From: Simmondsia chinensis
Lineage: Eukaryota > Streptophyta > Magnoliopsida > Caryophyllales > Simmondsiaceae
NCBI GenBank assembly: GCA_018398585.1
Contig: JAGTTD010000008.1
Coordinates: 3,918,501-3,982,500, forward strand
DNA length: 64,000 nt
Reading direction: 5' to 3'
Shown: one piece after another, positions 3,254 through 46,460 of the stretch
Position numbering within the stretch: the first letter of the stretch is position 1
Layout: each line of letters opens with the position of its first letter
Translations under genes and position numbers: made by a program
The notes under the pieces: generated by a model
The model's database searches: none
Told to the model about the DNA's origin: nothing
The model's input: the letters and a program-made list of their open reading frames with translations, nothing else

Positions 3254-4698
3254 ATATATATATATATAAATTTGGCCCCATTTTAAAAATATTTAGCAAA
3301 TTGACCCATTTCATTGTAGCGAAACTGTTGCACGATGTACGGAACGTCATGCAACAGTGACCAATTTTTTTTTTTTAGTTTTACCTCTTTAAAATTGAAA
3401 AAAATTAATAAAATTTCTTTTTAATTTAAATTATTTTAATTTTTAAAATAAAAATATCCCAGGGGCGCACTTATCGGCTGATTTATTTGCTTAGGTTCAA
3501 TTACATACTATTGACCTTGTACTATTTGCCTATTATATGCCTTGTACTATTTGATGTGTCCGTGCTTATGCTTTGTGCTTCTGCTTATGCTTTCAGGATG
3601 CCTGCTCTCATGACAATGATACGATATTCTGGTTGGGGGTCCTCAGAAACAGCCTCTCTTCCACTCGGAAGGGGGAAGGTTGCGTACATGTACTATTAAT
3701 AAGGAGGATATAAATGAGGGACACATTTAAATGAAGAGATGTTGACGTTTTCAACAAAAAATCACGAGTTTACGCATTTGTACATTATGGTTTGAGCTAT
3801 TTTATTAGATACATGTAACTCAAAAGCTAATGTATATAAATTTTGAAAATATATTTTATAAACATAGTTCTAATAAAATAGTTCAAATAATAATGTACAA
3901 ATACGTAAACTCGTGATTTTTTATTGGAAACATCAACATCTCTTCATTTAAATGTGTCCCGCATTTATATCCTCCTTATTAATAGTATTATAATACCATA
4001 GTTCCTGTATGAGATAGTTTAAATAATAATATATATATCACAATCTCCTTATTTAAATGTGTCCCTCATTTATATCTCCCTAATTAATAGTTCAAATAAT
4101 AATATACATATACCTTTTAATTTAAAATGTATACGTATTTAGTGATTCAAATTATAAAATTAAGAATTAAAATAATTTAACAACAACAACAATAACAGTC
4201 CCAGTGCCAAAGGCTCCAGCGAAAGCGGGGTCTGGAGAGGGTGGATGTACGCAGCCTTCCCCCTTCCAGGTGGAAGAGAGGCTATTTTCGAGGACTCCCA
4301 ACCTGAATATCATGTCGTCATGGGAGCAGGCATCCTGAAAGCATAAGCAGAAGCACAAAGCATAAGCACGGACACATCAAATAGTACAAGGCACATAATA
4401 TGTAAATAATACAAGATCAATAGTATGTAATTGAACCTAAGCAAATAAACCAGCCGATAAAATAATTAAAATAATTAAAATTAAATTTTTTTTAATTTTA
4501 AAAAGGTAAAACTAAAAAAAAAAATTGTCACTGTTGCGCGCCGTACGGAACGGCGTGCAACACTGCTGCACGACGTTCCGTACATCGTGCAATAGCTTCA
4601 CTATAGTAAAATGGGTCAATTTGCTAAATATTTTTAAAATAGGGCTAAATTTTTAATTTTTTTTTTGAAAAGAGGCTATTTTGCAAAAAAAAAAAGTC
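3189..4698. mobile_element. Foldback element with about 500-bp inverted arms
   Basis: The left arm (3189 to about 3695) and right arm (about 4190 to 4698) are inverted copies, starting with GACTTTTTT..GCAAAATAGCCTC and its complement. Each arm carries a small hairpin around a TGCACGATGTACGGAACG core and then a LINE 3'-terminal segment ending in the GGTTGGGGGTCCTC tail module shared across the window. The 9 bp outside each arm differ at one position (aaaataaaa versus ataataaaa), but this is low-complexity sequence and weak evidence for a Mutator-like TSD. No transposase is inside. It could be an inverted pair of LINE-bearing copies or a true long-TIR element. Confidence 0.6.
3691..3987. mobile_element. 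Foldback MITE nested in the larger inverted repeat
   Basis: Arms starting TACTATTAATAAGG and ending CCTTATTAATAGTA pair over about 110 bp on each side (about 3691-3800 and 3870-3987), giving a near-perfect hairpin of about 297 bp with no coding capacity. It interrupts the LINE tail of the left arm. A third partial copy of one arm lies at about 4045-4100. TA may be the target duplication, but the flanks are too AT-rich to be sure. Confidence 0.65.
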
Positions 4699-8990: not shown

Positions 8991-9076
8991 TCTACCATAG
9001 TGCCGTATAAGTTATATATTTGATATACATAGTATAAGCTTATTAAATTATAGAAATTAATGTAGGGTTTATTTAC

Positions 9077-9318
9077 CAGGTACTAAGGCACTGGATCCTA
9101 TTCGAACTTTAAAATTAAGCGTGCTTGGGATAGAGTAGTACCAGGATGGGTGACCTCTTGCGAAGTCCTTATGTTACCAATCATATAAGGTTGGGAGTCT
9201 TCGAAAACAGCCTCTCGGTAGAGTTACACCCTGAAGGGTGAGGCTGTGTATATCCACCTCTCCCAGACCCCACTTATGCGGGAGCCCTTAAGGCACCGAG
9301 TCTTCTGTTGTTGCTGTA
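9077..9318 (+). mobile_element. 5S rRNA-headed SINE with LINE-type tail (copy 1)
   Basis: About 9077-9178 is homologous to 5S rRNA, including the internal promoter region (AATTAAGCGTGCTTGGG, then GAGTAGTACCAGGATGGG and TGACCTC). It is followed without a gap of note by the tail module GGTTGGGAGTCTTCGAAAACAGCC..GCGGGAGCCC, ending in a TTG-type repeat. A 5S rRNA gene would stop at GCACCC, and this one continues into a retroposon tail, so it is not an rRNA gene. The family otherwise resembles SINE3-type elements (5S-derived heads). The flanking duplication is not clear for this copy. Confidence 0.75.
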
Positions 9319-11204: not shown

Positions 11205-11332
11205 TCAGGTTAGGGGTCCTCGGAAACAGCCTTCCTTCTGGGCAACCCCCAAAAGGGGGAAGGCTGTGTACATCTACCCTCCCCAGACCCCGCTTTTGCG
11301 GGGGCCCTTGAGGCATTGGGTTGTTGTTGTTG
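11205..11332 (+). mobile_element. Tail-only retroposon with long TSD
   Basis: This 128-bp insert consists of the tail module (GGTTAGGGGTCCTCGG through GCGGGGGCCCTTGAGGC) plus TTGTTGTTGTTG. The same 21 bp, beginning TATCTTTTTGAAG, precede it at 11184 and follow it at 11333, a perfect TSD. This marks it as a separate retrotransposition event by the resident LINE machinery. Confidence 0.8.
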
Positions 11333-14317: not shown

Positions 14318-17300
14318 ATGTCTTTTTCTCGGATTGAAACGAGCAGGGGAGAGTTAAGAATCCATGAAAATGTAGACGAGCTCAGTACCGATTTGGTTGA
14401 GTATGTATCTGAGCTATCTGATGCATCAGTGAAAGAGCGAGGTGTCTTTACGATTGCTTTATCGGGTGGTTCACTCATTGGCTTACTGGGGTACCCATGC
14501 TCTTCTTATCCATTTTGATGCCTTTTGAGTTTGAATTATGTTTCGAAATTTGATTTCTGGTTGGAAACAGAAAACTATGTGAAGCGCCTTATAAGAAGAC
14601 AATTGACTGGTCCAAGTGGTATGTATTTTGGGCTGATGAACGAGTCGTAGCGAAGAGCCATGTTGATAGTAATTACAAGCTAGCAAAGGAAGGATTCTTG
14701 TCAAAGGTTGGTGTTACTGTAGCTTAACTCTTGTTTATCTTTCAATTTCGGTTTAATTTGTGGTTCTGTCAGTGTCCAATGTTCTTGCCCCTAAGACTAA
14801 GAATCCAATGATTTTTCGATTTTGTATCGCATGAACTGCATTAATTGGCTTACTGTGTGGATATACCTTAAATGGGATCTTCATTCGTAATCTCGTTCTG
14901 CTGCTTGCAGTTCCAATCTTGCAAATTTTTGCACTCTTTCAGTTGATGTATCATATATCACTCGGTTTAGCTAACCATGTGAGACTTTACACTGATACCA
15001 TATAGAAGAAGAGATTTCAGAGCTTATTGTCATTTTAGTCATGCCATTCGGGAGTACTGTTGGGAGCATGGGTGGCTCTTTTGAGTTCTTTGGAAGATCT
15101 TTGATGTTTGGTCCCTGCATTGGCGGGAGCCCTCATGGCATTGGGCTTGTGGTTGTTATCTTTGATGTATGGTAGAATTTGTTCACTACATATATGACTT
15201 CGATTAGGAAAACGATCATGAGCACGATCTTGTTTCAGATGCTTTGTCGACAAATGAACGTAGATCTCTATTTTCATGACCAGAGGAAGTTATATACTGT
15301 AATAAGCCGTTTGTTATATTTTCGTCTCGTCGACGAAAATTGAGTTGGTGTTAAGTGACTCATATACTTTCATAAGTGAGAGGTTCCAACCATGTAATCA
15401 ATCACAGCTTCACACTGGAGTGTCGAGGATGCTACGTAATGGCTCGTGGTGATCTCAGTGGGTTTCTTCGGATATATAAGTTGAGGACATTTGGCTTTTT
15501 CTGTCCCAATTAGAGGATTTTAGAGTCTCCCATATGTATAGGGAAGGAAATGAGGCGGCAGATAGGGTACAAGTATGGATCTGCAGTGACAGGTGTCAAA
15601 TTCTTTGTTCCAAGCTCTTTATAGGGTAGTTAATGCTGAATCAGTAGACAGGGCTATCCGTCGATAGGTCCCCAGCGTTCTTTTTACCTTTATTAAAAGA
15701 AAAAAAAAATTAACCAAGAGATCTAGCCATAAAGTACACATTTAAGGGTGCAGATGAACCAAATATTCGATGAACTACTTGTGTTCGAAATCAATTACGT
15801 CTCATTCATGTTCGTTATAGGGGCTCAATAGCTTATCAGGTCGAGTTCGAGCGTGTTCGATAAGATTAACGAGCCGAGTTCAAACAGGGGATGCTTGGCT
15901 CGTTATTGTTTGTGAATAGTTTGAGAAGGGCTCGTTAAAGGCTCAATAACAACTCGTTGAAAACTTATTAAGAGCTCGATAACAGTTAATATTAGCTCGA
16001 AATTGGTTTGATAATAGCTCAATAGTAACTTGAATAGCTTGGCTCGATAGCGAGCTCGACTTCAAAACAAGCTTGGCTTATTATAAGCTCGATTCGGCTC
16101 AATTAGCCTAACAAGTCGAGCCAAGCCACAGGTCGAACACACTAAAATCATATTGAACCAAGGTTGAATAAATGTTCAAAAGCTCGATAAGAGCTCGGCT
16201 TAAACTCGAGCTCGATAAGCCTTATCAAGCTCAAGTCCTAACAAGGGAGTTCTCGGCACGGCTCGTTTACACCCCTACACAATTGTAGTACTTCTTAGGA
16301 GCTGGTGGCTTGCCAAACGCCGCAGTCTTCGTCCGGGGCTGTTAATGGATGTGGATTAGTTAAGATTGGATAATCAAAGGAATCAGATAAACCATATTGT
16401 TTATGTTTATTACCAAAGAGGGCACCAACATGCTGTCACTGGATCCCATTAGAACTCCGAAGTTAAGCGTGCCTGGGAGAGAGTAGTACCAGGATGGGTG
16501 ACCTCCTGGGAAGTCCTCACCCTTAGGTTGGGGGCACTGGGAAACAGCCTCTCTTCAGGTTAACATCCTGAAGGGGGAAGGCTGAGTACATCCGCCCCTC
16601 CAACCCTGCGTAGGCGGGAGCCCTTGAGGCACTGGGTATGTTGGTTTTTATATTGTTTATGTTTATTCTAAGTGGAGCTGTTTAGTATTTCGAAGGCCCA
16701 CTGGTAAGAACATATTTGATTCCTTGTCATAATTGAGGTTGTTAGATAAGAATAGAATACAGTGGCTTGAATGATTAGTGTACTATAAATTACTCAATTA
16801 TTAACTAATAATCCTTATCCTTGGCTAAGATAAGGAATAAGATATATAATACTTATTTCCCCCCCTGATAATTAGCGACAAAGAGCCGCGATATAAAACA
16901 AGTACATCCGCAAGAGTAAGGCTTGAGCTAGCCTGCATAAAGGCGCGCAACATAAAGTAATACTTATCTTATGTTCTGTAATTAAGGGCCTATTCGGTAT
17001 GGTTTTCTATTTGCGGTTTTTGGTTTTTATGAAATTAAAAATTAGGTTTTGAAAGTGATTTTATCTGGTTTTTGGTTTATTGGTTTTAGTTTTTTCGAGT
17101 TTGGGTGAAAATTTGAAAACACAAGATTAAAAATAAGAAAATGTCTTTTTCAAAGCTTTGTTTTTTAGTTTGCTAAAAACCAAAAATTGTGAACAAAACA
17201 CCATAGCAAGCCATAATATACCAATTTGACAAGTTTGGTTTTTCTTTTGTGTTAAAAATATCGGACATAGTTAGGGACGTTAAAATGTTATTTACTACAG

Positions 17301-18285
17301 ATAGGGTGGCCATTCTTTGGTGTATTTAGTTGGAAAGAAATGATAGGATTTTAAGGGCAAATACACTTCAGCGAATTTATTATAGGAGAAGGTGGTTTTT
17401 TAGGCTCACTTTTGGCGAAACGCTCTGGAAGCGTCTCAGGCACGACCTTGGTCGATCTGCAGAGATATTGAAGTGCTTTCTTTCGTTAGCTTTACAGTTT
17501 TGTAGTTCTTTTCTTCATTGAGGACATCTTTTCCTTAACGATCTGTGCGTACTTTCTTTATTAATTCCATTTCTTTTGCTATCAAAAAGAGAACAGCAAC
17601 AACAGCAGCAAAAATATCGAACGTACTTTACTCTCAAAAATAGATAAGTTATTATTCTAAAGAATTTTCCCAAAATTTGGTTAAAATTTATTGTTTTCTT
17701 TGTTTATCTGATTGTTGCAAAGTTTGTCATTTGTTATATTCATGATTTACTTATGATAACATGCAAAAAGTTTTTAATTTTCAGGTTCCTATAATGCCAA
17801 GCCATGTACACTCCATCAATGACACCTTATCTGCGGAAGACGCTGCAAACGAGTACGAGTTTGGCATGCGCCAGCTCGTAAAGTCACGCGTAATCAGCGT
17901 GTCTGACATCAGCGACTGTCCCAAGTTCGACCTGATCCTTCTCGGGATGGGCCCAGATGGACACATTGCATCCCTTTTCCCAAACCACTCGGTCTTGGAT
18001 GTCGAAGACGAATGGGTGACATTCATAACTGACTCTCCCAAGCCACCACCCGAGAGGATCACCTTTACATTACCCGTGATCAACTCTGCTTTGAACGTCG
18101 TTGTGGTGGTGACAGGTGGCAGTAAGGCAGAGGCTGTCCACTTGGCGAACGAGGATGACGTGGACATCAGGACCCACCGGGTTTTGGTGCCAGCTAGGAT
18201 GGTCCAGCCAAGTAAGGGGAAGCTGGTGTGGTTCCTAGACAAGTTAGCTGCTTCAAAACTTGATGGGGTTCAATTTTCTGATTAG
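14318..18285 (+). CDS. PGL: 6-phosphogluconolactonase, cytosolic type, three coding exons
   Basis: Hydrolyses 6-phosphogluconolactone to 6-phosphogluconate, the second step of the oxidative pentose phosphate pathway. Exons are 14318-14490, 14571-14706 and 17785-18285, with GT..AG introns of 80 and 3078 nt. The joined frame is open for 269 residues, normal for the plant cytosolic form. Visible family signatures are the SGGS phosphate loop (residues 49-52), WADERVV (78-84) and [14 protein letters not shown] (from about 156), which carries the conserved Asp/Gly/His site. No plastid transit peptide is present: the protein starts with [13 protein letters not shown]. An upstream in-frame ATG at 14273 is less likely because the 14318 start follows a strong acceptor-like CCCCACAG and matches the family N terminus. 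Intron 2 is large because it holds a 5S-headed SINE, L1 fragments and a hAT MITE. Confidence 0.93.
15111..15161 (+). repeat. Fragment of the LINE/SINE tail module
   Basis: GGCGGGAGCCCTCATGGCAT followed by TGGGCTTGTGGTTG is the last part of the shared tail. It sits in PGL intron 2 and no TSD was seen. Confidence 0.5.
15423..15712 (+). mobile_element. L1-type LINE 3' fragment (RNase H end)
   Basis: One frame gives [13 protein letters not shown], the C-terminal RNase H-like signature of plant L1 ORF2, followed by a short 3' region and an A-rich end (15697-15709). The remainder of the element is absent. It lies in PGL intron 2 in the sense orientation. Confidence 0.6.
15743..16277. mobile_element. 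hAT-like non-autonomous element, GAGCTCG-rich family
   Basis: The left end TAAGGGTGCAGATGAACC and the right end GGCTCGTTTACACCCCTA form an imperfect TIR. The interior is dominated by GAGCTCG, GCTCGATA and related words. The flanking octamers do not match cleanly. It lies in PGL intron 2. Confidence 0.6.
16412..16649 (+). mobile_element. 5S rRNA-headed SINE with perfect 18-bp TSD (copy 2, reference copy)
   Basis: The head (about 16418-16521) carries nearly complete 5S internal promoter sequence: ACTCCGAAGTTAAGCGTGCC, GAGAGTAGTACCAGGATGGG and TGACCTCCTGGGAAGTCC. It then passes directly into the LINE-type tail (GGTTGGGGGCACTGGGAAAC..GGGAGCCCTTGAGGCACTGG) with a short T/G-rich end. The 18-bp sequence ATATTGTTTATGTTTATT occurs at 16394-16411 and again at 16650-16667. 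That proves a single retroposition unit of 238 bp. It lies in PGL intron 2 in the sense orientation. Confidence 0.88.
16858..16960 (-). repeat. Short antisense retroposon 3' end (family a)
   Basis: A CCCCCC tract followed by TGATAATTAGCGACAAAGAG and related sequence, homologous to the stretches at 13783, 20137 and 46592. In PGL intron 2. Confidence 0.45.
16986..17208. mobile_element. Probable short MITE
   Basis: Starts GGGCCTATTCGGTATGG, a word typical of PIF/Harbinger- or hAT-type MITE ends, and finishes near AAACACCATAGCAAGCC, whose complement resembles the start. AT-rich and non-coding. Boundaries are approximate. Confidence 0.4.
17315..17600 (+). mobile_element. L1-type LINE 3' fragment (RT zinc-binding end)
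   Basis: One frame reads [17 protein letters not shown], resembling the end of the plant L1 zf-RVT domain (W.ERN.R.F). The 3' end TTTTGCTATCAAAAAGAG matches the usual A-rich terminus of plant L1s. In PGL intron 2, just upstream of exon 3. Confidence 0.5.
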
Positions 18286-20815: not shown

Positions 20816-22044
20816 ATTTGGGAGAATGCTTAAATAAAGAATAAGAGAAAGAAAGAGAGAAATGGTCGGGTAAGAATTCATAACAAAGGAAGCCGTACAA
20901 AATTTGTGGCATTAGAAACTGCTAGTTATATTTAGGCAGTAATATTTTTTTTATAAATACTCTACATTGTAACTCTGTTATCATCGGACACACCACATAC
21001 ATTTGAAAGAGAATCAATGACAAAACGGGGAGCTTGAGAAAAAAAGAGAGTTAGCCTCAAGTAAACCCGTGCTATTTCTAATTCTCTATTTTGATAGAGA
21101 GAATCCGTTATAAATTCATTCATTTTGGTGTTATATTTTATTAGACTATTTTTGTCACATAAAGAGGGAAAATCATTTGCTTTTGTTACATCAATTTTGT
21201 ATCACTTTTCCAACAACGCTTTCGTAAAAGTCATCACCTATAATATATAATATACTATATACTGTATATTAAAGAAAAGTTTCCTTTTTTCAAAAGCCTT
21301 TCTTCCCCAATACGAGAGAAAAATTCTGACTATAGCCACTTAATGAATCTAATTAAAAAACCATCTCTTTTTTCACCCGTCATTCTCCAATAAATTTAAA
21401 CTAAAACAATACTCGATCAAGAAAGGAAAAATTCTTCATACTTCTCATTAAAACATTTATGTAGAACTACTACAATCTACTATACTTGTGGGAGCCCATG
21501 AAGCACTGAGACTGTTGTTCTTATTATTGTTGTACTACAATATCCTATACAATTTTAATTAGGAAAAGGACATTATTTTCGACTTCAAATAATGACAATA
21601 TGTCTTGTGAATTATGATTATTAAAAATGTAGACACCAATCACGTATTGCACGGAAAAATACTTGTTCAGATTATCCTTAAGTATAAGTGTTCTTGATCT
21701 TTATGGAGGAAAGAGACCGATTTAGAATGAACTATCTATCTTCAGGGCCGGTTTTGACATTCTTGAGATCCCAAGCAAAATTTCAAGTTGGGGCCCTTTT
21801 TCACATAAAATAACATTTCTATCAAAACTTATAAATATTAACAACTATTACTTCAAAAATCACAATCTCTAAGCAGTTGCAAGGATTCAGTGCATTTGTT
21901 TTTAACAAATGCAACTTTATATACATACATTTATATATAAATGATTTAAAAGTTACTTATTATAGCAAAATGTACGGCGCATTTGTTTTTAGAAAATGAA
22001 CTGAATCCTTGTCAGCGGCTGTTTGAACTAAAATAGGAACAAAA
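20816..22044. other. Intergenic DNA with one LINE tail fragment
   Basis: No gene seen. At about 21486-21533 the words GTGGGAGCCCATGAAGCACT and then GACTGTTGTTCTTATTATTG are the last part of the shared LINE/SINE tail on the + strand. Confidence 0.5.
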
Positions 22045-22046
22045 CA

Positions 22047-22240
22047 ACATTCTCAGTATCCCAAGGGTTCCCGCCTAAGCAGGGTCGGAGGGGGTGAATA
22101 TACGCAGCTTTCCTCCTTTAGGGTGCTACTTTGAAGAGAGGCTATTTTCGAATACCTTTAACTTGAAGAGTGAGGACTTCTCAGGAGATCATATATTCTG
22201 ATACTACTCTCATTCAAATATGCTTAACTTCGAACGGTTA
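22047..22240 (-). mobile_element. 5S rRNA-headed SINE (copy 3), degraded
   Basis: On the - strand, about 22170-22240 reads CGAAGTTAAGCATATTTG..GAGTAGTATCAGAATA..GATCTCCTGAGAAGTCCTC, a mutated 5S 3' half. It is joined to the tail module (AATAGCCTCTCTTCAAAGTA..GCGGGAACCCTTGGGATACT), ending in a TTGTTTTG relic. The head is truncated relative to the copy at 16412. Confidence 0.7.
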
Positions 22241-25386: not shown

Positions 25387-28300
25387 CTACTTCCTGCGCG
25401 AGTACACCAAGCCCAGCAACACAGAAAAGCCGATGACAGAGACGGAGACTGCCCAGTATTGGAAGGGCATTTCCTTCAGTTTCTGGGCAAGTTCTTTGTC
25501 CTTTGGCGTCTTGGATGAAATTTGAAGCTCGGGGATAGCTGGGGAAGATAGGTCTAGCTCTCCGATGCAGAACTTCTCCATGAGATCACGGGCGTCTTTG
25601 CTATGCCCCGCGTCTTCGAATTCTTCTTTTGCATCCTTTCCTGCATCATAAACACAAGTTGAATATACTGTGGTTAACCATAGTTGCACGTAGCGGAAGC
25701 GGGAGCAGAAGCGAGAACAGAGGAGCGGACAATCACAGAAGTTTCTAAAGTTGGGAGCGTGGAGGGAGCATTTGTGTTGCTATATATTTGATATACACAA
25801 GAAATTAAGGGAATGGAATTGATTGAAAGGTTAAAACATCAACAAAATCAATACTCAGTAATAATTTAGAAAATTGAGTACACTCCAATGAATAAGATCA
25901 AAAGAGTTGACTCCAATATGTCTATACAATTCAATCATTCGTTGAATCGAGTGATACAGCTAATAAATCATTTGATATGGCTGTTTGAATCGTATTTCCA
26001 TTGTGTTTGATATGCGCTTGAAACACGAATCTAACTTGCCGTATCGCGTTTACGAGCATGAAAACATTAGCGTTTTAGGAGTTTTCCGCAACCATGGGCT
26101 AACACTTTATTCTGGGCCAATATTCTAAATCCCTACAATTATAGTTAAATATCAGTTTACGGAAGTAAATGAAGGAGAAAGAAGATACCAGTTGCAGTAA
26201 GGAGTACATCATCGCCACCCGGGTGGTCATCCAGATAAGATGTCACATCATACACCTGAGGGACTGAAATTGTCAATGGCTATGCAACTAACTTATACTA
26301 GTAGACGCAAGCTTAAAATCAAAGAATCAACACAATTTGCACACTTGTATAGTAGCATTGCATATTTCGTGATCGACTTTTTGGGTTGTCATTACAAACA
26401 AAAATAAATGCAATCCGGAGGTCCTCTATGCTCCCATTAAACTTGTTTAACCAAGATTCTTTTATGAATTAAAGTGCACTTTTAGGGGCCAAAAAAAAAA
26501 CACCTTTTCTAGAATACTAAACAAAATCGTGTATCCGGCAATTAACCAAAAGCAGACACATGCAAGCAACTAATATTAACTCTGATCCTTAGGTAGGGGG
26601 TCCTCGAAAGCAGCCTCCCTTTAGGGTAGCACCCTGAAGGGGTAAGGCTGCGTACATTCCCCACCCACCACCCCCCCCCCCCCCCCCCCCGGCGCGACCC
26701 TCAGGAGCCCTCGAGGCACTGGGCCAGTTGTTGTTGTAGTGTCCAAAGTTGAGCATCGGTGAGCATAAATATAAGGGAAAATTTGCCAATTAGGTGATTA
26801 TCATCAACAGCAGCATGCTAACCAACAACCAGTGCAGAAAATATTTGACAGTTTGATTACAGTAAAGCAAAAGATCGCCAGATTTCTCGGCTAGTAGGAG
26901 ACACTTGAAGTGTCAGACATGTGACAGACTGATCAACACGCTTACCTTGTTAACAGTCTAGAGCCCTAGATTCAAGTCCCTCAACCCTATTTACATACCA
27001 AAAGAAGAAAAGGTGTTGCCCCATTGAGAGGAGCCTAAGCGTCGTATTTGGAAAAATGGTAGAACCCCCCTATGGTCTATATCCTCTCTCTCTCTCTCTA
27101 TTCTGCCACAAGCAAACGTTCACCTGCTGCCCCTGCTGTCACGTCGGCCATCTCGCCGACAACCGCTGCCCACCACCACGCCGGCGACGACCCCAGACGG
27201 CGACACCCAACCGCCGGTCCGAGTCCCCGCATCCCTCCTCTCCCCCCCTCCCTCCTCCTCCACTCTCCCTTCTCCCCTGCCTCCAACCCTGGCCCACCAA
27301 CCCCGGGTCACCACCACCGGCCACCACCGCTCTACCACCGGGTCCCACCACAGCACCCCACCCACCCACACACCGCCACCACCACCAGTTCGCACACCCG
27401 CCCCAACCCCACCCCTCCCCACCCCATCCCACCGCACCACCATCTGCCACCCCACGCACCACCAACCCCCCCCCCCCCCCAAACACACCGGCACCACCAC
27501 CACCGCTACTCCCACCCCACCCCAACCCAGGCCCACCGCACCCCACCTCGCCCCATCACCACCACCACACCTCACCTCACCCGACTCACCACCACCACCA
27601 CTAGCCCCTCACCACCATCACCACCGCCACCACTCCAAAGCCAGCAGCCTGCAACCGACAACCAAGAGCGGGCTCAGGTAAGTATTAGCCGGGTCAGAGT
27701 ATCAACTACGCACTAGCCCAGGTTTGATTTATCCTTTATTACAGCATGGTAGTGTTTTAATTTACCATTGTTGGGTAATTTTCACTTGGTTCTTTCTCCT
27801 TTCATTATTTTGAATAGTATGATCTTGTTGACTGTGGTGGTAGTTTCGTGCGTATATGCTATAATAAGCTTCTTGTCTATGTTGATCACTTACCCGCGAT
27901 AGTCACAGCTAGTTGATGAACGTTACCAATTATGGAACTCAGAGATTGAGGCCATCTTCAAAGGGGTTGGGGAGGGGGAGGGCGAGGCAAAAGGGGGCAG
28001 GGAACTTAAGACTAGGGATACTAAATGTCGGGACACTAACGAAGAATAGTTTCGAGGTGGCCCAAATGATGATGAAGATAAAGAACAACATCCTTTGTCT
28101 GCAAGAGACTAAATGGGTTGGCGCGAAAGCTAGAGATGTGTTGGAGCACAAGCTCTGGTATGCGGGCAAGGTCGGAGGCAGGAATGGTGTTGATATCATT
28201 GTGGATAGCAGCCTCAATGATAAAGTAGTCGAAGTATCAAGGGCTGGTGATAGGATCATAAGTATCAAGATGGTCCTAGATGAAGAAGTATTAAACGTAA

Positions 28301-31016
28301 TCAGTGCCTACTAACTGAGCATGAGAAGGCAACATTCTGGGAGGACTTAGACACAATGATGCAAGGCATACCCCAAACCGAACAAGTAATGATTGGCGGG
28401 CATTTTAATGGGCACGTTGGCGCGACGGAGGACGGTTACGCTTCTTACCACGGAGGATTCGGTTTTGGAACCAGGAATGCAGAGGGCAAAGCCCTACTAG
28501 ACTTCACGGTCACATACGGCCTAACGGTGGCCAACACCTTCTTCAGAAAGCGTGAGCAACACATCATCACGTACCAAAGCGGTGGCACAAGAACACAGAT
28601 TGACTACATACTATTAAGGAAAAGGGTGCAAAGAGACTGAAGGGATTGCAAGGCTACCCCAGGAGAAGACCTGTTTACACAACATAGGGTGCTGTGGGCG
28701 GATATAAAGGCCAAGAAGAGGGCCAAAAGAATCTGCGAACCCGCGCCGACGCGAACTTGTTGGAGGGATTTGAAGCGGGAGAAGTATAAGGTATACAAGG
28801 CAAGAGTGGAGGCCGAGCTCGAGTGGGACTTAGAGGGAGATACAAACCAGATGTGGAACCAACTGGCCCAAAAAATTAGAGGACTGGCATAGGAAGTTCT
28901 CGGCAACAGAGAGTCCTGGTGGTGGTACGAGGAGGTCCAAGAGAAGATTAAGGCAAAACAAGTTTGTTTCAAAGAGTGGGATCATAGCAGAGATGAGGAT
29001 AAGCGACATCGGTATCTGCAAGCCAGGAGAGAAGCAAAGACAGTAGCCAGAGAAGCACAATCAAGAGCTTATGAGGATTTCTACAAAAGGCTGGAGACCA
29101 AGGAGGGTGCGAGGGACTTATATAGAATCGCCAAAGCTAGAGAAAGGAAGACTAGGGACTTGGATAGAGTACAATGCATAAGAGGGGGAAGATGGACAGG
29201 TACTCGTGGACAGGCAACTAATTAAGGCTAGGTGGAAAACGTACTTCCACGAGTTGTTCAACGAACAAGGAGGGGACAGAGATATCCTTAGGTGATCTTC
29301 AAACATCTGAGGAGCATTAGAACCACTGTTACTATAGGCAAATTAGCCCCGAGGAAGTCAAGGAAGCCCTGAAATTCATGCCTTGGATAGAAGGGCGTCA
29401 GTTGACTGACTAAACTATTTAACCACATCCTTCTGGGGGAGAAGATGCCTAAGGAATGGAGGAAGAGCACATTGATTCCGATATATAAGAACAAAGACGA
29501 CATTCAGAGTTGCGCCAACTATCGGGGTATCAAACTAATGTGCCAAACTCTGAAGTTGTGGGAACGGGTTATAGAGAGGAGGTTAAGGCAACAGACAGAG
29601 GTATCCGAGAACCAATTCGGATTTATGCCCGGGAGATCAACAATAGAAGCCATCCACATCCTAAGGCGGACGATAGAGCAATACAGGGAGAGACAAAAGG
29701 ACCTTCATATGGTTTTCATTGATTTAGAGAAGGCATATGATAGAGTGCCAAGGGAGGTCCTTTGGAGAGTTTTGGACACGAAAGGCATCCCCGTGCCATA
29801 CATCCGAGTCATTAGAGACATGTATGTGGAGACACAGACTATGGCGCATACAGTGAATGGGGAGACAGACGCTTTCCCGATAACAGTAGGGGTACACCAA
29901 GGGTTTGTTTTGAGCCCCTATCTGTTCATTGTGGTTATGGACGAGCTCACTAGGCACATCCAGGGATATGTACCTTGGTGCATGCTTTTTGCAGATGATA
30001 TAGTGTTGGTGGGGGAGTCGCGGGAAGAGGCAAATGAGAAGCTGGAACTGTGGAGAGGGGTACTAGAGTCGAAGGGTTTACGATTAAGCAGAGCCAAGAC
30101 CGAGCACATGGAACTCAAGTTCGATCCCTCCACCACGCCTAACCGGGAAGATGTCAAGACTGGATCTAAGGCCATATCGAAGAAGGAGAGCTTTAGGTAC
30201 TTGGGGTCCATGATACAACATAACGGCGAAGTGGACAAGGATGTCAACAACCGGATTAAAGTGGGATGGCATAAGTGGAGGATGGCCTCCGTGGTACTTT
30301 GTGATAGAAAGTTCCCCTTAAAACTAAAGGGAAGATGCTATAAGACGGTTGTGAGGCCAGCCATGACATATGGGGCGGAGTGCAGGGTGATGAAACAACA
30401 GCACACACAGAAGATGAAGGTGGCGGAGACGCGAATGCTGAGGTGGGCGTAGCCTCTATTGAAGATAAATTGAGGGAGCAACGTTTGAGGTGGCTCGGAC
30501 ATGTTAGAAGGAGACCGAACAACGCTCCAGTAAGGAGATGCGAACAGTCCCTTACTACACTAGGCAGGAGAGGAAGAGGCAGGCCAAAGAAGAGATGGCT
30601 GGAGACCATCCGACAAGACTTCACCCACCTAAACCTTCGGGAGGAGATGGCCTTAAACAAGGCCCAACGAAGGGCTAGCATAGGGGTAATAGATGCTCCA
30701 GTTGGAGTAGGGTAGTCTAGCTTACTAGTGCTAGGTCTCGACATCCTCTTGGCGCACGTAGGTTGTGTACTTGCTCTCATGAGATGCTACTTGCCTACTT
30801 ATCTTTATCTTATCTTTTGATTTCTGCTTGATGTGGCTTGCTTTGAGTTTGTTGTTTTTGCTCGCCGTGTGTTTTGCCCTACTCATGCTCTAATGCTCTC
30901 CTGCCGCCAGGTCACATGGTCCATGCTGCGGACCAGCTTCTCAGGTTGGGGGTCCTCGAAAACAGCCTCTCTTCAGGTTAGCCCCCTGAAGGGGGGAAGG
31001 CTATGTACATCTACCC

Positions 31017-31047
<31 letters not shown>

Positions 31048-34000
31048 AAAAAAAAAAAAAAAGACCCTGCTTATGCGGGAGCCCTTAAAGGTACTGGGTT
31101 TGTTGTTGTTGTTGTTGTTGCTGTTGTTGTTGTTGTTGTTGTAACCCTATGGTCTATATTAAGAAAATATGTATTTAGCTTTAAATAGTCATGTGCTTAA
31201 GAAATGGGGGATAGGTAGCCATACGCCCTACAGATGACTATACAACTCTGTTTTTCGATTTAACCTTTCATATGCTTAAGAAATGCAAAATCAGTTCTAG
31301 TGAATTCATTCATCAATTGTCTATCTATATCTCCTAGAAACGCCAATATGATCTGCAAGAGAAGCATCTTCAAACAGCAAAGCATCGCGAGAATTTGGTC
31401 AAGACAGGCACGTTTAGCATCCAACAAGGTCCCAAATACTGAAAACAACTTAATACACGAGTAAATTAGCCTATTTGAGGTTGAGCTCGAACTTAAAAGA
31501 GTGAGGTCTGGGGATGAGGTCAAGAGGAATGTTATGAAGGAAAATAACTTATTCTCTTCTAAAAATGAAGTAGTCCAATTCCGAGGAATAAGCTTTCTTT
31601 TCAGACCATTTTTTACTATGGATTCATGTAAGTGAACATTAGAAATAAGACGAAATTGTTTGGCTGTAAAGTCATCCCTACATCTTCACTAATCAACTTA
31701 AGCTTTTAGTACAGTTACTTCTTTAACATTGTATCAGACCCTTGTTGACCGAAAAGTCACAAGTTCAAATCCCAACAACCTCCACTCTGAATATTAATAC
31801 ACTTCAAGCATAAGCTAGAGGTGTACAACAATCACAACAACAACAACAATCCCAGTGCCCCAAGGGCTCCCACATAAGTAGGGTCTGGGGGGGTGGATGT
31901 ACACAGCCTTCCCCCTTCAAGGAGCTACCCTGAAGGGAGGCTGTTTCCGGCGACCCGCCAACCTAAGAATCATGTCATCATAGGAGCACAGCAGCCTGGA
32001 AGCATGTTATGTTCTAGGGTTTTAATTGATTAATTCTTCTAATTCTTAGTTCTAAGTTGTTTAGTTGAGCTAGAATTATCAGAGTTAACATCTTAATCCC
32101 TCCAATTTACTAACTAACTTTTAAATGGGTTTTTGGCGGAAAAAGCTGTTAAATAGCCGTTGGTGGGCTGTTGTTGGTGCGGCTATCTGTTTTTTAGATT
32201 TTAACTGATTTTTGGCAATATTTTTCCTGTTTTTTACCCTTCTTTCCTTATCCCCTATGTCTATATAAGGACGGGAAATGCTTGTACTAAATAACTTTGA
32301 TGATTAATGAAATTTATAATTCCAATTTCTCTCTCTCCCTCTCTAACTCTCTCTTTCTCCCTTACTTTCTTCTTCAATTCTACTTTTCCCTAACTCTCTC
32401 TTCTCTTTCTCTCCCTCTTTCTCTCGATCAATTTCAAGAAAACACTAGTTTATGACCCATAACTCAATGGGGTCATAACAACTTGGTATCAGAGCACGTT
32501 AACCGATTCACGAAGGCACAAATGGGTCCAAGAAGGCAGCCCACTGCTGCTGCACTGCCGCTTGATGCAGTACCAAAGGCTTTACCGGAGGCCGTCGAAG
32601 AACAAGTTCAATTTTTGTACCGCAAGATCTTGTCCTTGGATGATCGAGTCCAAGAATCACACTTGAGGCATGACAAAGCCTTGTTGCAGCTACATGACCA
32701 AACGGCTCAACTTAGTGATGGTATGCAAGAACTTCGGGAGTCCTTTGGGCGTCAAGAAGAAGCATTTAGGCGACAAGAGGAAAGGACGGTGTCCTTTGAA
32801 GAAAAGTTGGCCAAAAATGATGAGATACAAACAAACCTCATGCAAAGGCTTCTCTCTAATCAAGAAAGGACCGATACTCTATGGCTCCACCTTGCTCCAA
32901 AGCAACCCCCGATCCTTCAAGCACCTACAAGCCATGCTCCCAACAACGGTAAAGCCCTAGTGGAACCTAACTTTGCTTCTAGTAGCTTAGGCCCCATTAG
33001 GGAGGGTAATCTTGATCCTATGGATCAAGAAACACCCCATTACCCAAGAAGGGATCAACCCTTTGGTCCAAGAATCCAAGATTTGGATCCATACCACCAA
33101 AGGAGGGCCTAAAAGGAATAATCCCAAGGTTGATTTCCCTGTTTTTGACCCTTCTAACCCTTGAGGATGGGCCCTTAGATGTGATAGATACTTTAGGTTC
33201 TGTGACATGCCCATCCAAGAAAGATGGGAAACTTTAGGCATCAACTTAGTTGGTGATGTTGCCACTTGGTTTGATAGTCATTTGTTAGGGAATGAAGACC
33301 TAACTTGGGACCAATTTGTAGAGGACTTGTGTGTGCGATTTGGGGACAAGAAGTATAGGAATGTAGTCCAGGAATTTAATAAACTACAACAAACTGGTTC
33401 AATTCTTGAATATCAAACTAAGTTTGAGGAACTCAAGGCCTATATGAAGAGAAATGATCCTCATTTGCGTGAGTAGTATTTTGTTTCAAGTTACCTAAGT
33501 GGGCTAAAACCTGAAATTAATCATACTATATCCATGTTTAAACCCACAACTTTGGTACAAGCATTTAAATTGGCTAGGCATTATGAGTTAGCACACCCTA
33601 ACTCAACCAAGAACACACCTAGCTATGCCCCTAGTTACAGAAGGCCCCAGTATAATGTCCAAACTAATGCACAATCAAGTAAGGCAAGCTTTAGTGCTGG
33701 AAATACTGCTGGAAGACCCCAACAGAACCAGAAATTTGTTTCTGGTGTGCTGCAGCGAGGCCCTTCTGCAGTACCTCAGAGGCCTGTTACTGGTTCTTCC
33801 CAACAATCATCTAACCATGGCCCTAATTCGCGTGCTTTTGACTCCAATAAGCCTTTACTAGCTTGTTATAAATGTGGAGAAAGATATTTCCCAGGTCATA
33901 TATGTCAAAACAAGCAAATAAGTGCGGGTAGAGGTGGAGGAACCTAGTGATGAGATTCTTGCTGCAGAACAAGAAGAATTAGGCCAAGAAAACTTCAATG

Positions 34001-37000
34001 AGGACCCTATAGAAGAGGAACCATTAGCCATGTCCATTGTCAAGAACGAGGGTAATGAAAATACCAACCATAGGACCATAAAGATCCAAGGATGGGTTAA
34101 GAAAAACAAGGTTTTTGGTCTTGATTGATAGTGGATCAACCCATAGCTTTGTTGATTCTAGGGTGTTTAAGGCCGGTGGATTTAAGCTAAAAACATGTCC
34201 TACCCTCACTTTTACTGTAGCTAATGGTGAAAAGACTTCTTCACACACTATTTGTCCAAATTTCACTTGGAAGATGCACGACCAAAAGGAAGGGACAAGG
34301 TGTAGATTGGTTAACATTGCATAGCCCTATACTTTTTGACTTTGCTAAACTTAACTTGATCATCCAAAAGGAAGGGACAAGGTTGTTTTTGCAGGGACAA
34401 GGTGTGGTCAAGGGTTGCAATTGGATTTCTGCAGAAGAAACTTTCAACGCACTGAACAAGGGTGCTTCTTGCTGCTATGGACAGATTTTAAGTGTTGAGA
34501 ATGGCTCTCAACACTTTGGTTTGCATTCTTTCAACTCCCTTGATGCATATACCTTAGATTTACAAAGTATTTTGGTTGAGTTTGTTGATGTATTTGAAGA
34601 ACCAACCCAATTACCACCTAAACGCAACCAAGATCATGCTATACCACTTATTCCTGGTGCTGCACCAGTCAACCTAAGGCCTTATAGACATCCCTATTTG
34701 CATAAATCTGAAATTGAAAAGCATATTGATGACTTACTTAAGAACTCTTTCATTTAGCCTAGTCATAGTCCCTATGCATCACCGGTTTTACTTGTCATGA
34801 AAAAAGATGGAACTACGAGGATGTGTATAGACTATAGGAAACTTAATGATTTAACCATTAAAAATAAGTTTCCTATTCCTTTAATTGATGATTTATGGGA
34901 TGAATTGCATGGTTCGGAGTTCTTTTCTAAAATTGATCTTAGGCATGGCTATCACCAAGTTAGAATGAAAGAAGAGGATGTCCATAAAACCGCCTTTAGA
35001 ACACACCACGATCACTTTGAGTTTAGAGTAATGCCTTTTGGCCTTGCTAATGCACCGGCAACCTTCCAATGTTTAATGAATGATGTGTTTAAACCCTATC
35101 TTAGGAAGTTTGTTTTGGTGTTCTTTGATGATGTACTTATATATAGTTCATCTTGGTCTTTGCATTTAGAGCATTTGCATACGGTTTTAGGAGTACTTAG
35201 GGCTAATAAACTTTATGCTAAATTGTCAAAGTGTTCTTTTGGGACAAAGACCATTGAGTACCTAAGCCACTGGATCTCTAAGGATGGAGTCTCTACCGAT
35301 CCATCCAAGATCGAGGCAATGAAGAATTGGCCAATACCTAATAACCTTGAGTCTTTAAGGGGTTTCCTAGGTTTAACTGGGTATTATCGCAAATTCATAC
35401 CGGGCTATGGTTTAATTGCAAAACCTTTAACTAATCTATTAAAGAAGAACTCGTTTATATGGAATGAACAAGCCACTGAATCATTTAAAACGCTTAAGGA
35501 AGCAATGTGTAATGCACCTGTACTTAGGTTGCCTGACTTTAGCAAACAATTTATCTTAGAAACGGATGCGAGTCAAGAGGGTATAGGGGCTGTCCTTATG
35601 CAAGAGGGACAACCCATTGCCTATCTTAGTAAACCCTTCAAGCCTAGAGAACAAGGTTTTTCCATCTATGAGAAGGAATACCTTGCTATACTCATGGCTA
35701 TATCTAAGTGGAGACATGACCTAGAAGGGCATTACTTCCTTATCAAAACTGATCATGAGGCCTTAAAACACCTATTAGAACAAAGAATTTCCACACCCCT
35801 ACAAAAGAAAGGCCTTAGTAAATTGATGGGCTTACACTATGGTATAATGTATAGGAAAGGAATTGAAAACAGAGCTGCAGATGCACTGTCAAGACCTAGT
35901 TCTGCAGCAAACCAAGTACGTCCTGCAGCAAACAATTTGTGTCCTGCAGCAAGCAGCTCAAATTTTGCAGTAAACTCTGTGTGTGCTGCAGATTTAAATG
36001 CAGTATCTGTTATTGTACCTCTTTGGGTACAAGAAGTAGAAAAAAGTTATAAGAAAGATGTAGAAAATCTGGAAATAATAAGGAAGTTGAGTATAGATAG
36101 AGATTCTTGTCCAAAATATACATTAGAGGGTGGCATTTTGCGTCATAAAGGCAAACTAGTCATAGAAACTCATGGTGATTTGTGTACAAAGCTTCTTGAA
36201 AATGTGCACAATCATGCCTTGGGTGGTCATTTGGGTATGGCTGCTACTTATAAACGAGCTAAACAATCATTCTATTGGAAAGGTTTAAAGCAATTTGTTT
36301 GTAAATTTGTGCTTGAATGTGATGTTTGTCAACGCAATAAAAATGAACATGTTAGGATGCCCGGGTTATTGCAACCCCTTCCTATTCCATCTAGACCTCG
36401 GTCCCATATTTGTATGGATTTTATTGAGGGACTTCCCAAGTCTAGTGGTAGGGATGTGATTTGGGTTATTATCGATAGATTTACTAAGAATGCTCGCTTT
36501 ATTGCATTGTCTCATCCCTTTACCGCATCTACCATAGCTAAAATATACATGGAACATGTTTTTAAGCTTCATGGTATGCCTAAAAGCATTGTATCAGATC
36601 GGGATAGATTGTTTATAAGCAATTTTTGGAAGGAAATATTCCGTCTGTCTGGTACAAGCTTGGACATGAGTTCAAGCTATCATCCCCAAACCAATGGTCA
36701 ATCTGAAAGGTTGAACCAATGTTTAGAGCAATACCTCCGTTGTATGACATCTTCTATACCACATAAGTGGTGTAGTTGGTTACATTTGGCTGAATTTTGG
36801 TATAACACATCATACCATACATCACTTAAGTGTACACCATTCTTTGCATTGTATGGTTATGATGCGCCAACTTTGGGCCTAATTGATTCTATGGAGACTT
36901 CTAATGCAGCGGTCTCTGATTTTTTCAGGAAAAGGTCACTAATTTCAGCTGAACTCAAGAGGAACCTAGAGCTTGCGCAGTCCTGAATGAAGCAAAATGA

Positions 37001-38486: not shown

Positions 38487-39115
38487 CTTCCTTCTCTATC
38501 TCTCTCTCCCCACCAAATCAAATCAAATCAATCTCCAAGATCGAATTTTTATGCGGAGGTTTAGGGTTTTTGAAAAACCCTAATTTCTCTTTCTCTCTCT
38601 AAAATGAAGAATGGCGGAATTTGGACGTTGCCGATTGTAACGCCGTTCCCAAAGGTTAACTACTTGCACAAGGGGCCACCAATTCTGTATCCTGATACAT
38701 GCTCAAATAAGTATATAAGACTACACTAACGAGGTAGTTTAACAGGAAGTAGATGAATCGAGTTTAATAAGGAAGATAAACTTTACAATTAAAAGTAGAC
38801 TATATTAATAAGACACGGCTCAATAGAGGTTGAGAGTGAATCTGAACCGTAATCTTATTAACGAGTGACGTAACATGAGAAAGAATATGTCTTTTTGACA
38901 ACATTAATAGTCTAGATCTCACTTTCAACCTCTCGTCTAAGGCATGTGTATACTGATGGAGCAAACAATGAAATTATGTCATTTTTTATCTCTTTTTAGT
39001 CTACTCTTTAGTTCTGGGTAATGTTATTATTAAAATAAAATTATAATTTTTGAAGCAATTTTATGACTCTTATTATTTATAAATCATATTATTGCTCTAA
39101 AAAGCAACATTTTTA
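38487..39115. other. CB5 5' leader and upstream region
   Basis: On the - strand, the 5' leader of CB5 is GA-rich (about 38487-38610, AGAGAGAGATAGAGAAGGAAG before the ATG). Beyond it, to about 39115, is AT-rich intergenic DNA with no gene. No convincing TATA box was singled out. Confidence 0.4.
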
Positions 39116-39341
39116 GTACCCCAAGCGCTCTCGCTTAAGCAGGGTCTGAGGGAGGTGAATGTACGCAGCCTTCCTCTTTCTGGATGTTACCTTGAAGAGA
39201 GGCTGTATCCGGGAATCCCCAACCTGAGGGGTGCAACAGGAGGATTTCCCAAGAGGTCACCCATCTTGGTACTAATCTTGTCCAAGCATGCTTAACTTCG
39301 GAGTTATAATGGGATCCGGTACTTGCGTATTGGCACCCTCT
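39116..39341 (-). mobile_element. 5S rRNA-headed SINE (copy 4), 5S 3' end complete
   Basis: On the - strand, 39341-39229 reads as 5S rRNA from GGGTGCCAATACGC.. through ACTCCGAAGTTAAGCATGCTT, GATTAGTACCAAGATGGG and TGACCTCTTGGG to the natural 5S terminus GTTGCACCCC. It continues straight into the LINE tail (TCAGGTTGGGGATTCC..GCTTAAGCGAGAGCGC). This copy shows that the 5S/tail junction lies just after the mature 5S 3' end. The (TTG)n is lost and the TSD is unclear. It lies about 0.75 kb upstream of the CB5 start. Confidence 0.82.
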
Positions 39342-40192
39342 TAGTGATAATTTTTGTCCATACAACATCAACCACCCTGATTTTAATACTTGACTGCTTT
39401 TTAGTTAATTTCTGTCGTTCTGAACTATGGTTCGGATCAGTCGGAGTTCAATTGGACCTTGGAATTGGGTGGCTATGGAGGTAAGTAGGTGACATTTTTT
39501 ATCCAAATTAAGTTATCAAAATCAACTTTGGCAGGCTATCGTAGTTGACCTAGGTGCATGTGGCAAAGCCCATAGGCCCATGAAAGATTTTTATTTTTTT
39601 TAAATTCCTTTTCACATCTGTAATATATAGCTGATGCGGATGTTGGATTCAGACCCGTGTCTTAAAGTTGACTCACTGTCTCCCCAACCATGGGCCTCGG
39701 AAAAGATAACATCACACATTTGTGTTCCAATCCCTAAGGACATTCCCTTTTGTTCCGTTGTAGATCATTTTATAAAGCTAGATGTTTCAAGAGTTGTTTT
39801 ATTTTTTTTTCCCCCTCTTTTTTATTGTCTCTTTTAATTTTCTTCGATTTTTGTTGTTTGATATATTGTCTTCTTGGTTATTTATTTTGGATTCCCCCAA
39901 CTTTTATGGGTCCTGGTTCTCTTATAGCGAGCTCGCTCCTAACATATCCAACTATGAAAAACATCCTTGTTTCTGCATGTTTTCAACATGGCCGGTCAAA
40001 ACTCGTAGTACTCAAAGATCTTGCTTGGGGATTTCAATTTATTAAGAATCCTTTTTATAAAGGGAGGAGATTCAGTGTTGTCTTCAAAAAATAACCCTGG
40101 TGCGTTTGATTCTTTTAAGGTGAGATTTTTGAACAAATTTTATACATATATATAAATATGATCAAAAAAATGTAAAATATATAATTTATGTA

Positions 40193-46406: not shown

Positions 46407-46460
46407 AAAAAAGGAACATACCCAATGTCCCAAGTGCTCCCGTCTAAGCAGGGTCTGGAG
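46407..46460 (-). mobile_element. 54-bp minimal LINE tail insertion with TSD
   Basis: Carries only the last part of the shared tail (CTCCAGACCCTGCTTAGACG..CATTGGGTATG) and a T/A-rich end. It is bracketed by a perfect 16-bp duplication, aagaaacactagaata, at 46391 and 46461. An extremely 5'-truncated retroposition product. Confidence 0.75.

Follow-up and report, generated by a model that had tools for sequence, protein, structure and literature searches.

A SINE3-type family with a 5S rRNA-derived head and a LINE-derived tail in the genome of the flowering plant Simmondsia chinensis

The genome of Simmondsia chinensis (jojoba) harbors a SINE family in which a head derived from 5S rRNA is joined to the 3′ end of a LINE, and this combination has spread as one unit, with target site duplications (TSDs) at its ends, in thousands of insertions. 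Taken as a whole, the data are very probably explained by a SINE3-type, i.e., 5S rRNA-derived, SINE family of a flowering plant that is mobilized by a LINE and originated by a template jump. We also lean, though only slightly, toward the more specific reading that this is the first known 5S rRNA-headed plant SINE, born in the lineage of this plant when the reverse transcriptase (RT) of an RTE LINE jumped to the 3′ end of 5S rRNA, with the ancestral junction still readable in hundreds of copies and the derived subfamily, marked by an 8-nt loss, being the successful one. The analysis started from a stretch of 64,000 nucleotides, here called the window, whose relevant features are compiled in Table 1.

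Table 1. SINE copies, their parts, and related LINE sequences in the window
Feature	Position	Strand	Evidence
Older, decayed 5S-headed SINE copy	9063-9304	+	Rfam 51.8 bits (9063-9182+); blastn 75.6% over 209 columns vs 16412 copy
Tail-only insertion (~120 bp; strongly 5′-truncated LINE) with ~21-bp duplication	11205-11332	+	duplication by eye; blastn
5′ TSD ATATTGTTTATGTTTATT	16394-16411	+	18 bp, identical to 16650-16667
5S rRNA-derived head, young subfamily, without 8 nt of the 5S 3′ end	16412-16524	+	Rfam RF00001 74 bits (match 16412-16529); alignment to the plant's own 5S gene
C-box AGGATGGGTG in the 16412 head	16491-16500	+	
LINE-derived 3′ tail (most likely RTE clade), T run at end	16525-16649	+	same tail downstream of RT in 20/20 LINE loci; tail alignment
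3′ TSD	16650-16667	+	exact copy of 16394-16411
Strongly decayed SINE copy, 5′ part unrecognized	22041-22234	-	blastn 75.5% over 192; head HMM 40.3 bits; not matched by Rfam at gathering score
Part of LINE copy: RT frame 29445-30452, shared tail 30943-31105, then TTG repeats	29445-31105	+	Pfam RVT_1 E=4.7e-39; plant reverse transcriptase relatives; tail match
Older-subfamily SINE copy, complete 5S 3′ end at junction GTTGCACCCC/TCAGGTTGGGG	39099-39343	-	Rfam 62.6 bits (39228-39338-)
Tail end alone with SINE-type TTCCTTTTT end, ~16-bp duplication	46408-46460	-	duplication by eye; blastn 83% over 53

A first-pass annotation of the window had described four elements (9077+, 16412+, 22047-, and 39116-) as fusions of a 5S-like head with one and the same 3′ tail module. 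For the head, the Rfam 5S_rRNA model scored above its gathering threshold in three of them (16412, 39116, and 9077), whereas the head of 22047- was recognized by similarity only, with 77.6% over 67 bp to the 16412 head (blastn) and recovery by a head HMM built without that copy. The same kind of tail was found behind the head in all four elements, both by blastn and by reading of the sequence, and the 16412 copy matched the other three with E values of 6e-32 to 1e-47, well beyond a chance resemblance. The perfect 18-bp TSD claimed for the 16412 copy proved exact, and in the 39116 copy the junction indeed follows a complete 5S 3′ end; around 9077+, 22047-, and 39116-, no clear duplication was seen by eye. 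The second half of the 16412 unit had 14 other matches in the window at E < 1e-3, three of which correspond to the other named elements, while the remaining 11 places carry the tail without a 5S head, including the one located downstream of the LINE RT frame. The short tail end at 46408-46460 is probably a 5′-truncated SINE. As judged by eye, the start of the tail-only insertion at 11205-11332 all but coincides with that of the LINE-derived portion of the SINE (TCAGGTT...), a hint that the LINE reverse transcriptase may favor this point for stopping or jumping. With respect to the surroundings, an exon or gene piece of a 6-phosphogluconolactonase (Pfam PF01182) is located at positions 17761-18285, about 1.1 kb downstream of the 16412 SINE, which may therefore sit in or beside a gene. 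At positions 34797-36986, a Ty3-type LTR retrotransposon is represented by a long open frame for RT, RNase H, and integrase, with the integrase core just below the Pfam cut-off.

The 831-Mb assembly containing the window (35 contigs) was searched with the 238-bp unit (16412-16649). From 6,252 first-look candidates, 40 places were scored, which matched nearly the whole unit at 91 to 95% (100% for the window copy itself); there were 42 matches in all, two being further pieces, and 41 elements lay in the 40 places taken with flanks. These 41 copies have a median pairwise identity of 95.3% and a median identity to their consensus of 97.4%, and since they are the best-scoring ones, the set is biased toward young copies. 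Two subfamilies differ at the junction: the older one keeps the full 5S 3′ end, whereas in the young one 8 nt of it are missing (TCCTCGTGTTGCACCCCTC against TCCTCACCCTC). Exact matches in the genome number 2,966 (1,483 + 1,483) for the young junction word GAAGTCCTCACCCTCAGGTTGGGG and 286 (138 + 148) for the older one, GTCCTCNTGTTGCACCCCTCAGGTTGGGG, and the reversed control words gave no match in either case. The exact words of both subfamilies thus provide a firm minimum of 3,252 junctions. From five extra heads in about 126 kb of loci chosen for other reasons, a copy number of approximately 33,000 (Poisson 95% about 11,000 to 77,000) was obtained, which indicates the order of magnitude only because these loci are nonrandom. 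Outside the plant, a single match to the head-to-tail pattern in genome_contigs lay on a GC-rich Deltaproteobacteria contig and was dismissed as chance, being without a match to the window at E <= 1e-3; viral_contigs gave 0 matches to the pattern, and no copies were found in plasmids.

TSDs were analyzed in two samples. In the 41 best-scoring copies, where duplications were required to be adjacent to the unit's own ends, 31 had TSDs of 14 to 28 bp that exceeded the 99% level set by 1,640 mismatched pairs; the highest control score was 27 and the highest real one 28, and two of the duplications are plain AT repeats. The second sample comprised copies chosen by junction word alone, namely the first 20 listed places of the exact 24-base word, all on contig C1, of which 15 had TSDs of 11 to 21 bp when compared with 380 controls. 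In this sample, duplications accompanied 14 of 15 nearly full-length copies versus one of five starting beyond consensus position 40; the copies without a significant duplication (10/41 and 5/20) accordingly include four of the five strongly truncated copies of the second set. Among loci with the older junction, duplications of 13 to 18 bp were present in three of eight, two of them around 5′-truncated copies (best match per locus, without control). The flanks of the 41 copies are unrelated, as only 2 of 3,321 pairs were similar, one of these representing two SINEs of one locus, and no second head in the same orientation was found in 16 three-kb loci. Since the junction recurs in both subfamilies, the TSDs flank the whole unit rather than its halves, and the flanks are unrelated, the head-tail fusion moves as one unit, as the first-pass annotation had proposed, and is not LTR bounded; independent adjacent insertion of the 5S part and the tail is thereby excluded, and so is a longer LTR-bounded unit.

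The insertion sites carry a T-stretch about 10 nt upstream of the duplication. Specifically, positions -11 to -9 of the first set contained 55 T and 6 G/C among 93 bases (background T 0.33, G+C 0.35), and these positions, once noticed there, were tested in the independent set, which contained 32 T among 45 (background 0.36; P=2.3e-6) and 4 G/C among 45 (P=0.0017). In an excerpt of PMC13295347, plant RTE LINEs and their SINEs are described as having such a T-stretch some ten bases ahead of the duplication. The signature also includes a duplication that begins with T followed by A. Of 31 duplications, 16 began with A and 13 with T, but for this TA part of the signature the edge of the duplication is ambiguous, as the SINE ends in T. 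Hence the T-stretch half of the published plant RTE signature, and only that half, is clear.

The tail of the SINE is the 3′ end of a LINE, i.e., the last ~120 nt of a LINE resident in the same genome. When the RT frame of the window LINE was used as query, all 120 scored places had E < 1e-189 (the 14,949 first-look candidates are not a copy count), and in each of 20 of these loci examined, the tail lies downstream of the RT on the same strand, which bears out the LINE derivation suggested earlier. The SINE tail is 75 to 89% identical to these 20 LINE tails; the tail alignment comprised 14 of these 20 loci, together with two decayed copies from the window, and left out L052, L077, and window positions 4194-4306. 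Of 24 base pairs predicted for the tail RNA, 9 show changes on both sides, and the covariation term of -0.27 kcal/mol is weak and was counted as no support for a structure. In the window copy, the frame at 27913-28314 looks endonuclease-like by eye and is without a Pfam match, and the conserved tail is split at about 31014-31062 by a local expansion in which a long run of C precedes a run of A. The best 120 of 3,219 relatives of the RT frame are mostly annotated as plant reverse transcriptase, LINE-1 Pol, or hypothetical, with some from catfish, and none of these 120 names contains "RTE". The window LINE and the tail-only copies end mostly in TTG repeats, whereas the SINE ends in TTCC or T runs. 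According to Table 3 of PMC3747384, flowering-plant RTE LINEs have (TTG)n or (TTGATG)n as their 3′ termini, and L1 elements nearly always have A. In legumes, SINEs with a terminal T have RTE LINE partners with a (GTT)n end (PMC13295347, in excerpt). Because the TTG end and this pairing match published plant RTE elements, and with the T-stretch as a further basis, the partner LINE is most likely a member of the RTE clade.

The plant's own 5S genes served as reference for the head. A first look with RF00001 returned 51,838 loose candidates in the genome, of which 47 were scored (97.6 to 112.8 bits); 46 of these lie in two clusters on contig C8 and one copy on contig C29. The clusters are tandem arrays at about 4.69 Mb (L104-L115) and about 6.40 Mb with spacings of about 435 and 421 bp, some gaps being double. 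As a side observation, the nuclear assembly also contains many decayed pieces of plastid matK (27 matches, including L098-L103). One such fragment has 91% identity to Simmondsia chinensis (Caryophyllales, Simmondsiaceae), versus 70 to 77% for the other hits listed, and points to this species as the very probable host. The tandem 5S gene ends with GTGTTGCACCCC followed by TTTTT, while in the older SINEs GTGTTGCACCCC is followed by TCAGGTTGGGG, i.e., CACCCC runs into TCAGGTTGGGG. Comparison with LINE-type copies of the window, which at the corresponding point read, e.g., TTCTCAGGTT or TTCAGGTT, indicates that no filler separates 5S from LINE sequence in the SINE. At the other end, the head departs from the 5S gene in its first dozen bases, and the head at locus L077 shows a 6-position gap relative to the Rfam model. 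In most plants, 5S reads CATCAG. The jojoba head has CATTAG and, in some older copies, AAGATGGGTG in common with the plant's own 5S gene, which suggests that it originated from the 5S of the host lineage; counting against this origin, the young consensus carries AGGATGGGTG, the canonical C-box according to an excerpt of PMC10853983.

The earlier notion that the heads retain promoter elements also held, as the C-box is exact in 36 and the A-box region word AAGTTAAGC is present in 38 of the 41 copies. A TTTT motif occurs internally in two and at the 3′ end in 29 of the 41. Together, the promoter words and the terminal T run suggest transcription by RNA polymerase III from the internal 5S promoter. 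Without the 8 nt of the 3′ strand, the closing stem of 5S would be weaker; we can only guess that this loss helped the young subfamily to escape 5S processing.

Three other explanations were weighed against a SINE family born by template jump. The 5S part could belong to the LTR of a Cassandra-like TRIM or a solo LTR, the tail then being LTR or internal sequence mobilized by an LTR retrotransposon, and according to the accessible portion of PMC10853983, Cassandra LTRs of many plants do carry a 5S-like core of approximately 70 bp. In a Cassandra TRIM, the 5S region would lie inside paired LTRs accompanied by PBS and PPT, whereas the 16 three-kb loci contain no second direct head, the flanks of the copies are unrelated, the significant duplications (11 to 28 bp across both samples) lie at the unit's own ends, and the tail is a LINE 3′ end in 20/20 loci, which makes this origin highly improbable. 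Only marginally less improbable, and still very unlikely, is a series of one-off 5S retropseudogenes, i.e., fresh chimeras of 5S and LINE tail formed anew each time by the LINE machinery without any self-propagating family. Template jumping yields such chimeras, and the position of the junction at the 5S 3′ end is compatible with them, but the copies have derived changes in common, namely the altered first part of the head (with the 6-position gap) and the 8-nt junction loss of the young set. These common changes and the high median identity of the 41 best copies mean that the copies descend from source SINEs.

A stepwise joining deserves more weight, although we consider it unlikely. Here, a 5S retropseudogene would have landed inside or beside a preexisting LINE tail or tRNA-headed SINE, replaced the head, and been cotranscribed with the tail from then on. 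Replacement of the promoter is a known route, which speaks for this possibility. It is also favored by the legume SINEs that have their 3′ end in common with RTE LINEs (PMC13295347, in excerpt). On the other hand, the LINE-like sequence follows the 5S 3′ end without intervening bases, a feature that a template jump predicts directly.

For the favored SINE3-type family, the following life cycle can be proposed from the sequence features. TFIIIA/TFIIIC and RNA polymerase III would transcribe the SINE from its internal 5S promoter, with termination at the 3′ T run. The LINE protein would bind the LINE-like tail of the SINE RNA and nick the target about 10 nt beyond a T stretch, and the RNA would be copied in by target-primed reverse transcription. 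Birth of the family by a template jump from LINE RNA to 5S rRNA is suggested by the older subfamily, in which the 3′ end of the plant's own 5S gene is joined to the LINE tail: a LINE reverse transcriptase, having started on the 3′ end of its own RNA, may have jumped to the 3′ end of 5S rRNA and thus fused the tail of the LINE to an intact 5S 3′ end. In a subfamily that arose later, 8 nt of the 5S 3′ strand would then have disappeared, and its expansion would be recent.

The combination of parts sets the jojoba family apart from known plant SINEs. The Angio-SINE superfamily, said to have been defined by Seibt in 2020 by a 37-bp Angio-domain at the 3′ end, is tRNA headed; the 3′ end of the jojoba SINE may resemble this domain, but its head is 5S according to both Rfam and the alignment to the plant's own gene. 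The legume SINEs of Nishiyama and Ohshima likewise reportedly possess a tRNA-type head instead of a 5S head. They resemble the jojoba family in the 3′ end shared with RTE LINEs (in jojoba, most likely RTE), the pairing of a SINE ending in T with a LINE ending in (GTT)n, and the T-stretch (Nishiyama and Ohshima 2018, via excerpts of PMC13295347). The tobacco TS element, one of three SINE/LINE pairs named for flowering plants (PMC3747384), is also a plant SINE, with about 100 nt of an RTE LINE 3′ end, as is probable for the jojoba family, and differs by its tRNA-related head and its TTG-repeat end (PMC3747384). Cassandra TRIMs are plant retroelements that use a 5S promoter as well, yet they are LTR retroelements with the 5S sequence inside the LTRs and with another tail and mechanism (PMC10853983, in excerpt).

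The closest design is found in animals. With its 5S head with internal promoter elements, its short, dispersed 238-bp unit flanked by TSDs of variable length, and its LINE 3′ end, the jojoba family has these properties of SINE3 elements. Those of fish and Lepidoptera have a 5S-derived polymerase III promoter head, are nonautonomous, and depend on LINEs, as the jojoba family probably does, while differing in their animal hosts and in their LINE tails, e.g., CR1 in vertebrate examples (PMC3747384 and PMC10886601, as far as excerpted). Ped-1 of the springhare pairs a 5S promoter head with a 3′ tail from BovB, a LINE of the RTE clade (PMC3747384, Table 1), so that a 5S head with an RTE-clade tail is a design known in animals; Ped-1 differs in its rodent host and its LINE lineage and presumably arose independently. 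Plant SINEs, by comparison, are called tRNA-derived in a review (PMC9033089), 5S SINEs were sought in maize without success according to an excerpt of PMC2774510, and the excerpted text of PMC10853983 speaks of the acquisition of 5S promoters by SINEs for animals. No plant 5S SINE is named in the excerpted portions of PMC10886601, PMC7215508, PMC5787218, PMC11603912, and PMC11709435. Among the matches listed from the open-access literature (title and beginning of the abstract), we likewise did not find a 5S-headed plant SINE, although one may be described in subscription papers, most preprints, or Repbase. Thus, the design of a 5S head with a LINE tail is known from some animals, and the plant case is new as far as we found.

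For annotation of the jojoba genome, thousands of 5S-like sequences that are not 5S genes are to be expected, as illustrated by the number of loose RF00001 candidates. The family also provides a plant system in which the choice of RNA and DNA targets by RTE LINEs can be tested, and it allows the birth of a SINE to be followed one base at a time. With a large family, its likely LINE partner, and the ancestral junction in one genome, jojoba would show that plants, too, can make SINE3-type elements.
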